A stretch of 64,000 nt of DNA from contig NZ_CP044523.1 of assembly GCF_008831545.1 (NCBI RefSeq), positions 2,542,001 through 2,606,000 on the forward strand, written 5' to 3'. The position numbers were made by a program, and so were the translations under genes. The notes beneath the pieces are model-generated. The model did no database searches and was not told where the DNA came from. It saw only the letters and a list, made by a program, of their open reading frames with translations. Origin of the DNA: Halorussus halophilus. GTDB lineage: Archaea; Halobacteriota; Halobacteria; Halobacteriales; Haladaptataceae. Shown here piece by piece: positions 26,741 through 38,630 of this stretch. Each line of letters begins with the position of its first letter. Position 1 is the stretch's first letter.

Positions 26741-27502
26741 ATGATGAACGAGAGCCAGGAGCTCGCGCCCGCCGTTCGCTCTATCCTCCGGACGGCGGAG
26801 GCGCGAGGAGACCCCGGCGCCGAGAGGCTGTCGGTGGACGCACGGTCGTTCCCCGACGCGCTCGCGGCGGCCGAAGCCGACGGACGCGTTCCGGTAATCG
26901 CGGAGGTGAAGCCGACGAGTCCCACGACAGAAGGAACTCGCGAGGCGGACCCCGTAAAATTGGCCGAACAGATGGTCGCGGGCGGCGCGGCCGCCCTCTC
27001 GGTGCTGACCGAACCCGAACACTTCGGCGGGTCTCCCGAGAACCTGCGGCGCGTGCGCGACGCAGTAGACGTACCCGTGCTTCGGAAAGATTTCGTTCTG
27101 GAGGAATCGCAACTCGACTCTGTGGAAGCCGACCTCGTCTTGCTCATCGCGCGCTTCGTCGGTGACGACTTGCCGGGCTTGGTGGCGGCCGCAGAAGAAC
27201 GGGGCTTCCAGCCACTCGTGGAGGTCCACGACCGAACGGAGTTGGAGCAGGCAGTCGAGGCGGGCGCGAAGCTAATCGGCGTGAACAACCGCGACTTGGC
27301 GAAGTTGGAGGTGAACCTCGAAACGTTCGAGTCCGTCGCGCCCCACGTTCCGGACGACGTGACCCTGATTGCTGAAAGCGGCATCTCCTCGTCGGCGGAC
27401 GCCCGGCGAATGCGGGATGCCGGGGCCGACGGCTTGCTCGTCGGCTCTGCGATAATGGACGGAGAAATCACGGAGAACACGCGGAGGTTGACACAGGCAT
27501 GA
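26741..27502 (+). CDS. trpC: Indole-3-glycerol phosphate synthase
   Basis: A TIM-barrel enzyme (253 aa) that closes carboxyphenylamino-deoxyribulose phosphate into indole-3-glycerol phosphate. Motifs include [11 protein letters not shown] (catalytic Lys), [32 protein letters not shown]-type [14 protein letters not shown] and LIAESGISS. Two ATGs stand in tandem (26741 and 26744), and a further in-frame ATG at 26714 would overlap the promoter. First gene of trpC-trpB-trpA; trpB starts inside its last codons (4-bp overlap). Confidence 0.93.
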
Positions 27503-35522: not shown

Positions 35523-35723
35523 GTTGGGATTTTGTGAACGAGAGTGGAAATGCTTTGGCCCGATTCTACAGACGAGCGACGTAGTTCATCGGTCAGTATT
35601 TCCGAGACTTACGTTCGTGTAGCCGAATCCGACGTAGTTGAATTGAAGCTAGCTACTGCTCAGATTCTGCTCGCTCTGCATAACTCTAGTAGTCTTTCTC
35701 GGTCCAGTCAGAGCTAGCTACTT

Positions 35724-36057
35724 CCGATACCGATGAGAGACCGCACAGCGACCGCTCCGCATGAGCCACACGCCTCCCCAGCCGACTACGTTTCTCAGGT
35801 CCGGAAACCGCGGCGTGCCGCGGTTTCCGCGTTGCGATACTCATCCCTCGCGCGAGTTCGGCGCAACCACTTCGGGTTGCGCCAACGCGCGCCGATGACC
35901 GAAGAACAATTTCGCGCATTTTCACAGATTTCTCGGCGCGTGCGGCCGAATCCCGTGTGGATTCGGCCATCCGCGCGAGGGACGAGCGAGCAGTGCGAGC
36001 GAGTCGGATGGGGAGGACGTGGTTCGTGGTTGCGGTGCTGTCTCTCCTAGGCACCGG
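35724..36057. repeat. Composite hairpin element, copy E (two facing modules)
   Basis: The ends are inverted repeats: CCGATACCGATGAGAGACCG at the left, and at the right GGTGCTGTCTCTCCTAGGCA, then CCGG. The left module carries CGCCTCCCCAGCCGACTACG, a 12-bp stem GGAAACCGCGGC/GCCGCGGTTTCC (35802-35827), TCATCCCTCGCGCGA and the stem GGCGCAACC-ACTTCG-GGTTGCGCC (35860-35883). The right module has GGCCGAATCC/GGATTCGGCC (35944-35968), CGCGCGAGGGACGAG and GAGTCGGATGGGGAGGAC. Compared with copies C and D, the second stem shows paired changes (CGACC/GGTCG to CAACC/GGTTG). It lies in the 950-bp gap before metG. Confidence 0.7.
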
Positions 36058-36177
36058 CATCAGTGCTGTTCGCTGTGCTGTCAGAGTTCCTGTCCTCACC
36101 ACTAACCGAATTCCCACTCGGAACTCACCAGACTACCCACGAAACACCTAGCCACTAGCTACCACCCCGAGCGAAGC

Positions 36178-36183
36178 CTTAAG
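36178..36183 (+). promoter_or_regulatory. TATA-like box of the metG leader ORF
   Basis: CTTAAG, in the context GCCTTAAGTA (36176-36185), is centred 27-28 bp before the GTG at 36208. This is the spacing expected for a leaderless haloarchaeal transcript that begins at that codon. Confidence 0.45.
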
Positions 36184-36207
36184 TAGCAAAACGAACAACT
36201 CTGAGTC

Positions 36208-36285
36208 GTGCGAATCACGGTCCAGAAATCATTTCAAACCCGACTCGCCCGCGCTATGCGCATGCAGATGCAGAGCCACGCGTAG
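36208..36285 (+). CDS. Possible 25-residue Met-rich leader peptide upstream of metG
   Basis: A GTG-started mini-ORF, MRITVQKSFQTRLARA followed by MRMQMQSHA, ends at TAG 36283. Three of its last nine residues are Met, and it lies 190 bp before the methionyl-tRNA synthetase gene. A TATA-like box 28 bp upstream suits a leaderless start, and a foldable sequence begins right after the stop. Translation is not proven; the case rests on promoter spacing, residue content and position. A Met-sensing leader peptide is inference. Confidence 0.4.
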   Translation: MRITVQKSFQTRLARAMRMQMQSHA

Positions 36286-36286
36286 C

Positions 36287-36339
36287 GTCGGGAGGACCCA
36301 CCGGACCGTGACAACTCTTCTGCGGTGGCGAAACCCGAC
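36287..36339 (+). ncRNA. Nested stem-loop after the leader ORF, candidate regulatory RNA
   Basis: Outer stem GTCGGG (36287-36292)/CCCGAC (36334-36339) and inner stem CCACCG (36298-36303)/CGGTGG (36323-36328) are separated by an asymmetric internal loop (AGGAC/CGAAA). A 19-nt apical loop is present. The structure begins one base after the stop codon of the Met-rich mini-ORF, in the path of a transcript running toward metG. Whether it is a real RNA element is not known. Confidence 0.35.
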
Positions 36340-36438
36340 TCGCTGATTGAACCACCAACCAGTCACAACCAGTCACGAAACACAGAATCCAATGCACGAA
36401 TCACCGAGTCGAATTCACAGCCCCCAACACCGAAATCG

Positions 36439-36455
36439 GCGGGTTTTACACCCGC
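36439..36455 (+). promoter_or_regulatory. Dyad GCGGGT-TTTAC-ACCCGC over the metG promoter
   Basis: The perfect 6-bp inverted repeat encloses a TATA-like TTTTACA, located 24-30 bp before the metG ATG at 36474. A protein bound to the dyad would cover the box. As RNA from the upstream leader, the same bases would form a short hairpin directly before metG. Confidence 0.45.
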
Positions 36456-36473
36456 GAGAGAGGACCAGATAGT

Positions 36474-38630
36474 ATGAGCCACGAGGACTTCCCCACCGAG
36501 GAACCGGCCGTGGTGACGTGCGGCCTGCCGTACGCCAACGGCGAGTTGCACATCGGCCACCTGCGAACGTACGTCAGCGGCGACGCCTACGCTCGCGCGC
36601 TGGAGAAACTGGGCCAACAGACGGCCTTCGTCTCCGGGTCGGACATGCACGGCACCCCCGTCGCTGTCAACGCCGAGAAGGAGGGCGTCACGCCCGAGGA
36701 GTTCGCGCTCCGGCACCACGAGAAGTACGAAGAGACGTTCCCCAAATTCAACGTCGAGTTCGACAACTACGGACACACCCACGACGAGACGAACACCGAG
36801 TTGACACAGGAGTTCGTCCGCTCGTGGATAGCAAACGACCACGTCTTCGAGAAGGAGATTCAGGTCGCGTGGGACCCCGAAGCCGACCAGCCACTGCCCG
36901 ACCGCTACGTCGAGGGGACCTGCCCGTACTGCGGTGCGAAGGCCCGCGGTGACGAGTGTGACGAAGGTTGTCAGCGCCACCTCGAACCCGGAGAAATCGA
37001 AGACCCGCGCTCGACGCTGACTGGGAACCCCGCCGAGTACCGCGCACGGGAACACGAGTTCCTCAGATTGTCGGACTTTCAGGACTACCTGAAGGGGTTC
37101 ATCGACCGCTTGGAGGGCACCAGCAACGCGCGAAACCAGCCCCGAGAGTGGATAGAGGGCGAACTGCAGGACCTCTGTATCACCCGCGACATGGACTGGG
37201 GCATCGACTATCCGGGCGAAGGAAAGGAAGACCTCGTGCTGTACGTCTGGGTAGACGCGCCTATCGAGTACGTCTCCTCCACGAAGCAGTACAGCGAGCG
37301 CGTCGGCACAGACACCTTCGACTGGGAAGCCGCGTGGAAGGACGGCGCACCCGAGGCCGGAGCGGACGACGAAGCCGACACCGAAGCGTGGGCAGACGCC
37401 GACACGGGCGAAATCGTCCACATCATCGGCCGCGACATCATCCAACACCACACGGTCTTCTGGCCATCCATGCTCCGCGGTGCGGGCTACAACGAACCGC
37501 GCGCCGTCATGGCGAGCGGGTTCGTCAACTTGGACGGCAAGGCGTTCTCGACCAGTCGGAACCGCGCCGTGTGGGCCGACGACTACCTCGACGAGGGCTT
37601 CGACCCGGACCTCGTGCGGTACTACCTCACCACGACCGGCGGGTTCCAACAGGACGTTGACTTCTCGTGGGAGAAGTTCCAGGAGCGCGTCAACGGCGAG
37701 TTGGTCGGCACGCTCGGTAACTTCGTCTACCGGAGTCTGCTGTTCGCGGCGCGCAACTACGACGGCGCGCCCGAGGCCGAGACTTCCGAGGAAGTCGAAG
37801 AGCGAATCGAGGAAGCTATCGAGGAGTTCGAAGCCGCGGTCAACGACTACTCGCTCAAGGAGGCGGGCGATACCGCAATCTCGCTGGCTGGCTTCGGCAA
37901 CGAGTACATCCAGCGCAACGAACCGTGGAACCTCGTCGGCGAGGAACCCGAGCAGGCAGAGCAGGTCATCTACGACTGCGTGCAGTTGGCCAAGGCCGTC
38001 GCGGTCCTCTCTGCACCCATCCTCCCCGGCACGGCCCAGACGCTCTGGGAGCAGTTGGGCGAGGACGGTACGGTGGACGACGCTGGACTCGACGCCTGTC
38101 TCGAATCCCCCAATGGAGAATTCGACGAACCGGACGAACTGTTCGAGAAAATCGAAGACGAGCGCGTCGAGGAACTGAACGCGAAGTTGCAGGAGCGAAT
38201 CGAAGCGGCTACGGAAAGCGACGACCAAGCAGACACGGACGAAGCAGACGCGGACGAAGCCGAATCGGAGGACATCATGAGCGAAGACGCAGACATCGAA
38301 CCCATCACGGACGACCGCATCAGTTTCGAAGAGTTCCAAGACCTCGACATCCGCGTCGGGGAAATCGAAGTCGCCGAACCCATCGAGGGCGCGGACGACC
38401 TCGCGCGACTCGAAGTGAACATCGGCACCGAGACCCGCCAAATCGTCGCGGGCATCAAGCAACTGCACGACTTGGACGCACTGCCGGGAACGAAGGCCAT
38501 CATCGTGGCGAATCTGGAGAAAGCCGAGTTGTTCGGCGTCGAGAGCAACGGCATGTTGCTGGCCGCGGGTGACGAGGCCGATATCCTGACGACTCACGGC
38601 GACAGCGTGCCAGGGACGAAGGTACAGTAA
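36474..38630 (+). CDS. metG: Methionyl-tRNA synthetase with C-terminal tRNA-binding domain
   Basis: A 718-aa class I synthetase charging tRNA-Met. It has TCGLPYANGELHIGHLRT (HIGH region), a zinc-binding knuckle CPYCGAKARGDECDEGC, and the KMSKS-equivalent KAFSTSRN. An acidic hinge (TESDDQADTDEADADEAE) joins it to an EMAP-II/Trbp111-like domain (residues ~610-718, starting DDRISFEEFQDLDIRVGEIE) that helps bind tRNA. Such fusion is common in haloarchaea. The promoter region holds a dyad, and a Met-rich mini-ORF precedes it. Confidence 0.95.
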   Translation: MSHEDFPTEEPAVVTCGLPYANGELHIGHLRTYVSGDAYARALEKLGQQTAFVSGSDMHGTPVAVNAEKEGVTPEEFALRHHEKYEETFPKFNVEFDNYGHTHDETNTELTQEFVRSWIANDHVFEKEIQVAWDPEADQPLPDRYVEGTCPYCGAKARGDECDEGCQRHLEPGEIEDPRSTLTGNPAEYRAREHEFLRLSDFQDYLKGFIDRLEGTSNARNQPREWIEGELQDLCITRDMDWGIDYPGEGKEDLVLYVWVDAPIEYVSSTKQYSERVGTDTFDWEAAWKDGAPEAGADDEADTEAWADADTGEIVHIIGRDIIQHHTVFWPSMLRGAGYNEPRAVMASGFVNLDGKAFSTSRNRAVWADDYLDEGFDPDLVRYYLTTTGGFQQDVDFSWEKFQERVNGELVGTLGNFVYRSLLFAARNYDGAPEAETSEEVEERIEEAIEEFEAAVNDYSLKEAGDTAISLAGFGNEYIQRNEPWNLVGEEPEQAEQVIYDCVQLAKAVAVLSAPILPGTAQTLWEQLGEDGTVDDAGLDACLESPNGEFDEPDELFEKIEDERVEELNAKLQERIEAATESDDQADTDEADADEAESEDIMSEDADIEPITDDRISFEEFQDLDIRVGEIEVAEPIEGADDLARLEVNIGTETRQIVAGIKQLHDLDALPGTKAIIVANLEKAELFGVESNGMLLAAGDEADILTTHGDSVPGTKVQ

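Follow-up and report, generated by a model that had tools for sequence, protein, structure and literature searches.

The metG gene of Halorussus halophilus (NZ_CP044523.1; 36474-38630, plus strand), which encodes a methionyl-tRNA synthetase of 718 aa, is preceded by a short open reading frame (ORF) with clustered Met codons and by a foldable RNA, which raises the question whether the two form an attenuator operated by stalled ribosomes. Stalled-ribosome attenuation is a textbook bacterial mechanism, and ribosome-mediated attenuators with cognate leader peptides are found in E. coli in trpL, pheL and pheM, the last of these before pheST. A sequence-only reading of the locus had proposed such attenuation for metG and had considered it new for archaea. 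Here, we followed this proposal by comparing the upstream regions of metG and of other synthetase genes in the class Halobacteria. All positions refer to the window, i.e. the whole 64-kb stretch of DNA that was analysed. Relatives of metG were collected by tblastn, and the nearest named metG records came from Halorussus species.

Architecture of the metG leader

The TATA-like box, the leaderless-type GTG at 36208, the 25-codon ORF with a Met-rich end and the two-level stem-loop one base past its stop that the sequence-only reading had described before metG are all present on the plus strand. The TATA-like box CCTTAAGTA of the putative distal (leader) promoter spans 36177-36185, and its TTAA lies 29 nt 5' of the GTG. 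The leaderless ORF (36208-36285) encodes MRITVQKSFQTRLARAMRMQMQSHA and ends with a TAG stop at 36283-36285; its three Met codons (36256, 36262 and 36268, together 36256-36270) are located 9 to 5 codons before this stop. The hairpin starts at 36287 with helix P1, in which GTCGGG (36287-36292) pairs with CCCGAC (36334-36339). P1 is followed by a 5x5 internal loop composed of AGGAC (36293-36297) and CGAAA (36329-36333) and then by the predicted stem P2 with its apical loop (36298-36328), where CCACCG (36298-36303) faces CGGTGG (36323-36328).

Two further helices connect the ORF with the hairpin. In P0, TCACGGTCC at the start of the ORF (36215-36223) pairs with GGACCGTGA in the hairpin loop (36303-36311). 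Helix A, predicted in the fold of the full leader, has the 5' strand CCCGCGCTA (36248-36256), which reaches the first internal Met codon, and its partner is 36283-36292, i.e. the stop codon and the 5' strand of P1, which means that helix A and P1 exclude each other. Folding of this single sequence sets the hairpin only slightly apart from shuffled sequences (z -1.77; equally good folds in 10 of 200 shuffles), and in the lowest-energy structure of the whole leader P1 is replaced by two other helices. A scan of both strands of the 64-kb window found a single copy of the motif GGNGGAC-N15-55-CGAAACC.

No Rfam family, T-box included, passed its gathering threshold when the window was scanned, and with permissive settings (E up to 5) the region 35700-36600 yielded nothing relevant around the leader element; an istR match below threshold (35802-35904, minus strand) was dismissed as an effect of inverted repeats at that site. 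A terminator-like U-tract is absent at the leader in the window, where the longest T run is 2, and no conserved U-tract was seen in Haloferacales or Natrialbales elements. A T run of at least 4 is present in only 13 of 25 Halorussus and Haladaptatus elements, which suggests that termination is not a conserved output. A classical terminator of hairpin and U-run would thus apply to only part of Halorussus and Haladaptatus and was rejected for the window and elsewhere.

Conservation of the leader across Halobacteria

A DNA search returned matches in 24 of 40 relatives, and the metG upstream regions that we compared were those of these relatives together with 80 named haloarchaeal loci. The common plan spans Halorussus, Haladaptatus, Haloferax, Halogranum, Halegenticoccus and Natrialbales-type genera, with leader peptides such as MPVTVRTRSEPDRSARAMRMRMQSDA, MRRTAHPVASPMRSQR, MTATGLPDNMRMRAFF and MTVPSAPEARSMRMRR. 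For a class-wide search we built a covariance model (R1) from the end of the ORF and the hairpin of the metG leaders. It matched 87 of 391 genomes, drawn from 31 of 86 genera, once per genome, and in 86 of the 87 matches metG lies directly downstream (the exception is locus L329). In a deduplicated set of 157 metG upstream regions, a pattern search that ignores the ORF detected the hairpin in 82 and did not find it in the other 75, among them that of Halorussus marinus.

Leader ORFs were called when the start lay 27-33 nt past a TATA-like box and the frame ended 0-34 nt before the hairpin, and 70 of the 82 hairpin-bearing regions contain such an ORF. These leaders are 12 to 38 codons long, start with GTG (49) or ATG (21) and stop mostly with TAG (64; TAA 5, TGA 1). 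The distance from TATA box to start is 29-31 nt in 58 of them, which fits a leaderless haloarchaeal gene (about 27-31 nt), and in 52 of the 70 the offset between the stop and the GGN motif of the hairpin is exactly 7 nt. Dinucleotide-shuffled upstream regions yielded a leader ORF in only 1.4% of cases; when TATA box and start were kept and the inside was shuffled, the share was 17.5%. An internal Met occurs within the last ten codons of all 70 leaders, and 51 of them contain at least two, whereas only 1.6% of the inner shuffles gave an ORF with such a Met; moreover, Met makes up 20% of the last nine residues. As the R1 model takes in the Met codon region, the counts were also made on regions found independently of it: 51 of 96 such regions have the hairpin and 44 of these 51 the leader ORF. 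Among 72 unique named regions, 30 have the hairpin and 24 the ORF, with an internal Met in 24 of 24.

The Halorussus leader peptides show no excess of third-position changes, and the three codon positions vary about equally. What is kept in this genus, as judged from the alignment, is therefore the frame, the start, the Met codons and the stop, and the body of the peptide shows no protein-level conservation; a leader peptide depends on just these features, a functional small protein does not. Since frame, start, stop and Met codons are conserved (70 of 82 regions against 1.4% of shuffles), the comparison provides strong evidence for a leader, and the ORF and hairpin before metG are not a product of chance. 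Conservation of the peptide end and the stems in relatives had been named in advance as a check on the proposal, and start, Met codons, spacing and hairpin are indeed kept class-wide.

RNA pairings in relatives

The pairings differ in how far they extend. The core of P1 pairs in each of the 16 Halorussus leaders. P0 is paired at 90.7% of positions in 27 sequences of Halorussus, Haladaptatus and Halomicrococcus, compared with 16-43% when the strands are slid against each other, and shows compensatory (two-sided) changes at several positions; the helix is not kept outside Halorussus/Haladaptatus-type sequences. Helix A reaches 91% in 16 Halorussus leaders (slides 25-67%) and is nearly invariant there. 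As a general anti-P1 helix it was rejected, since it pairs well in Halorussus only and is not maintained elsewhere. P2 or the apical stems covary in elements of the Natrialbales type and of the Haloferacales type, for each of which nine chosen sequences were checked.

One clade of metG elements (L044, L056, L066, L080, L083, L086, L092, L097 and L103) has an invariant apical loop, UCAU(A/G)CGG, which resembles the anticodon loop of tRNA-Met. Mimicry of the tRNA-Met anticodon was set aside as a general explanation, the loop being confined to this clade and absent from the metG elements of Halorussus, Haladaptatus and Haloferax.

Cognate leaders upstream of other synthetase genes

The same design precedes pheS, where a leaderless ORF with an end like GFGFFFA is followed by a hairpin with a 5x5 loop, YGGAC/CGAAA, as in metG, and 6 of the 12 pairs of this hairpin show two-sided changes. 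An RNA model of the pheS element (R2) matched 242 of 391 genomes and 65 of 86 genera. A Phe leader was present in 31 of 31 pheS loci that passed the hairpin pattern, out of 37 examined; the other six failed the strict pattern, and one of them (L142) reads GFGFFTGV by eye. Of 50 R2 matches examined from the 242 genomes (30 returned and 20 chosen from the remaining list), all precede pheS; a Phe leader could be parsed in 39 and not in the remaining 11. For both pheS sets the parse picked the ORF richest in Phe, and these sets thus prove presence and not rate. H. halophilus itself carries the Phe leader MPSEPHSGSITDEQRLRRGFGFFFAA before pheS (C1:3339023-3339101, minus strand; L387). Applied to the metG elements, R2 gave no significant match (best 15.6 bits, E 0.094), and a single covariance model for both genes was rejected. 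Therefore, we regard the metG and pheS elements as sharing a design and a similar loop and make no claim of common descent.

Leaders with a Trp-Arg-Trp motif, such as MQSAPTRWRWRTSGADSLAFAA, were found at 17 of 23 loci of the bacterial-type trpS2; the WRW codons are flanked by a helix of 8-13 bp whose two strands have changed in a compensatory way between species. In Haladaptatus, the trpS2 leaders contain only one Trp (RFWP), and their helices are shorter. Since the presence of Trp in the ORF was a condition for entering the Trp set, this set likewise proves presence, not rate. H. halophilus apparently has only the bacterial-type TrpRS, and the scan detected no Trp leader at its copy (L167). 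Furthermore, 8 of 9 valS loci have leaders of the MRLTASVVR type with tandem GTA Val codons, including that of H. halophilus (MKLTASVVRRTA, C1:3625562, L206). The share of its own residue among leader residues is 10.6% for Met, 14.7% for Phe (28 of the 31 leaders), 9.3% for Trp and 28.2% for Val, and the sets are nearly free of each other's residues, except for Phe in metG leaders and moderate Val.

The same scan detected no cognate leader before ileS, leuS, tyrS, serS, proS or glyS. A Trp leader was also absent in all 29 trpC loci inspected, including the trpC of the window (26825-27478), and biosynthetic attenuation at trpC was rejected on this ground; in bacteria, biosynthesis genes of this sort are under attenuation.

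The proximal promoter-like element of metG

Between the leader and metG lies a palindrome, GCGGG-TTTTACA-CCCGC (GCGGGTTTTACACCCGC, 36439-36455, plus strand), which is centred on the probable TATA box of metG; its TATA-like TTTTACA is located 30 nt before the metG ATG. Of the 157 unique metG upstream regions, 112 contain the palindrome, and 39 of these belong to the 75 in which the hairpin was not found. Its position suggests that the element is probably the leaderless promoter of metG itself, and the palindrome may in addition serve as an operator for some regulator. With a promoter-like element of metG at about -30, control by the leader would act on the distal transcript, and since the proximal element occurs with or without the leader, the latter would adjust metG expression and not carry all of it.

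A proposed model of ribosome-gated attenuation

The reading of the leader as a stalled-ribosome attenuator is supported by its class-wide conservation and by the cognate codons before the Phe, Trp and Val synthetase genes. We consider it about 75% probable that the metG leader is a cis-acting, ribosome-gated attenuator that senses the supply of charged Met-tRNA, and we propose a similar logic for pheS, trpS2 and valS, where the codons are those for Phe, Trp and Val. From the genomes of relatives one can read directly the ORF and its reading frame, the cognate codons, the spacing between stop and hairpin, and the P0 and hairpin pairings; that the ORF is translated, that ribosomes stall on it, and which way the switch works and on what it acts, we infer as follows. 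The distal promoter would give rise to a transcript beginning at or beside the GTG of the 25-codon leaderless ORF, which a ribosome would translate while RNA polymerase is still near. With ample Met-tRNA, the ribosome would proceed to the stop, where its footprint would cover the 5' strand of P1 (1-7 nt past the stop), and the hairpin would come too late. When Met-tRNA is short, the ribosome would stall on the Met codons 3-9 codons upstream and leave P1 free to fold. It is the constant stop-hairpin geometry that suggests these two positions of the ribosome. The folding of P1 would then mark starvation, upon which metG expression from the distal transcript would rise. In Halorussus and Haladaptatus, P0 would join the start of the ORF to the hairpin loop when the 5' end is free of ribosomes and could thereby add a reading of initiation, which also depends on Met-tRNA. 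The most likely output is premature termination or polarity of untranslated RNA, and mRNA stability or translation are also candidates.

A sub-variant of this model, which differs in the output alone, assumes that the folding altered by the ribosome governs mRNA stability or translation of metG and not termination. The lack of a conserved U-tract in the window and in Haloferacales and Natrialbales elements would agree with it, as would the SD-like GGAGG that precedes metG in Halorussus. However, the metG start lies 69-281 nt past the hairpin (n=70 leaders), compared with a coupling that fades over 30-40 nt in H. volcanii according to a section of PMC12548453, and most metG starts outside Halorussus lack an SD by eye, so that we view a translational or decay output as possible but somewhat doubtful. 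Alternatively, the RNA could be the active part, as a riboswitch or as a protein-binding RNA (e.g. for MetRS or L7Ae on its own leader), and the ORF would merely bring the ribosome. The 5x5 loop NGGAC/CGAAA, strongly conserved between two helices in the metG and pheS elements, and the tRNA-Met-like apical loop of one clade are what such an RNA might be expected to have, but the cognate codons change with the gene, the UCAUA loop is missing from the metG elements of three genera named above, and neither the T-box nor any other Rfam family matches; we consider this explanation unlikely.

That the ORF is an independent small-protein gene which adjoins metG by coincidence appears very improbable. 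Its own promoter-like box and leaderless start would suit such a gene, and the promoter-like element of metG could separate two units, yet the substitution pattern in Halorussus is not of the coding type and the peptide body is not conserved, the Met codons are set against the stop in 70 of 70 leaders, all but one of the 87 matches of R1 precede metG, and the enriched residue changes with the synthetase. A chance ORF in GC-rich DNA beside a chance hairpin would be compatible with the weak fold of the single sequence and with the 17.5% of inner shuffles that keep an ORF once TATA box and start are given; against the shuffle tests and the conservation of frame and Met codons in relatives from 31 genera, its probability is negligible. 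Some observations also weigh against ribosome-gated attenuation. In most species metG can probably bypass the leader by way of its own -30 promoter-like element, and P0 and helix A appear confined to Halorussus and Haladaptatus. Moreover, the patterns used place the hairpin in fewer than all metG regions (75 of 157 without it) and no cognate leader at trpC and six synthetase genes, and the published H. volcanii uORF table (PMC4983044), in the section considered, lists trpS and pheS and not metG.

Relation to known attenuators and published uORFs

Like trpL, pheL and pheM in bacteria, the haloarchaeal leaders combine a short ORF, cognate codons clustered at its end and a foldable RNA before a synthetase or biosynthesis gene, and the bacterial control of pheST by a Phe-rich leader is a direct analogue of the pheS leader described here. 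The cluster of cognate codons near the end of the ORF is found in 70 of 70 metG leaders and, as Phe, Trp and Val codons, at pheS, trpS2 and valS; an intrinsic terminator before the structural gene, another feature of the trpL/pheM type, is not conserved in these leaders. In contrast to the bacterial attenuators, the haloarchaeal leaders are archaeal, have a leaderless start at a TATA promoter, a hairpin that begins at the stop codon and a conserved NGGAC/CGAAA loop without a conserved intrinsic terminator, precede synthetase genes and not trpC, and are known here from sequence alone. T-box riboswitches likewise control synthetase genes by tRNA charging but need no leader ORF, and no Rfam match to them was obtained here. 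A comparative study of actinobacterial attenuators (PMC1262725) covered the leader peptides and RNA elements that accompany amino acid genes; it is close in subject but bacterial.

In the literature searched, with many subscription papers outside its reach, we found no report of leader-peptide attenuation or of cognate synthetase leaders in archaea, in agreement with the earlier suggestion of novelty. The type of mechanism is known in bacteria; new would be an archaeal, leaderless type of attenuator without a conserved intrinsic terminator. Transcription and translation have been reported to be coupled in H. volcanii (PMC8576121), and the same paper notes that nearly nothing was known about this coupling in archaea.

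Transcripts with such leaders have probably been mapped before. In the dRNA-seq study of H. volcanii by Babski et al. 2016 (PMC4983044), the section considered reports 16 uORFs in 5'-UTRs of 150-250 nt, including one of 23 aa (MW 2743, pI 5.4) before the tryptophan--tRNA ligase gene (trpS) and one of 26 aa (MW 2772, pI 5.9) before pheS; neither gene shows an extra start site at the main gene, and metG is not in the uORF list of its Table 2. The trpS2 leaders of three Haloferax species have 23 aa (MW 2625-2730, pI 5.4-8.0), and of 13 Haloferax species eight have a pheS leader of 26 aa (MW 2792-2850, pI 4.4-5.9) and five have one of 23 or 28 aa. As the leader lengths of 23 and 26 aa agree with those of the published uORFs, the transcripts that carry the trpS and pheS leaders are probably already mapped in H. 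volcanii, a comparison made by length, MW and pI without the H. volcanii sequence. In that section the uORFs are described without amino-acid content, RNA structure or a reading as attenuators, and the leader reading would offer an explanation for these uORFs, to which start-site mapping had attached no role.

On balance, we lean towards a still wider view, in which a class-wide haloarchaeal regulon of leaderless Met, Phe, Trp and Val mini-ORFs and RNA folds would switch metG, pheS, trpS2 and valS by charged tRNA. The NGGAC/CGAAA module would be common to metG and pheS, and metG could be a double sensor of elongator and initiator Met-tRNA. If true, the regulon would represent ribosome-mediated attenuation in Archaea and a use of transcription-translation coupling for regulation in this domain, and the pheS, trpS2 and metG genes of Haloferax would offer genetically tractable test cases.

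Additional small ORFs

A second small ORF (36347-36472) lies between the leader and metG, and a single base separates its stop from the metG ATG; its translation begins with M(H/P)EHGNRRVLHP in many Halorussus. It is probably a by-product of the promoter-like element, since every codon position is conserved at the nucleotide level and the element persists in species that lack the leader. Upstream of thrS in Haladaptatus and Halomicrococcus, a conserved ORF, M(L/A)G(D/G)CFTRR(V/A)LAR, was recognised by eye in 4 of 8 loci (L226, L228, L229 and L232). Thr is not enriched in it, and it was left out of the cognate leaders; part of these loci also show a GGTGACT/AGTCACC pairing.
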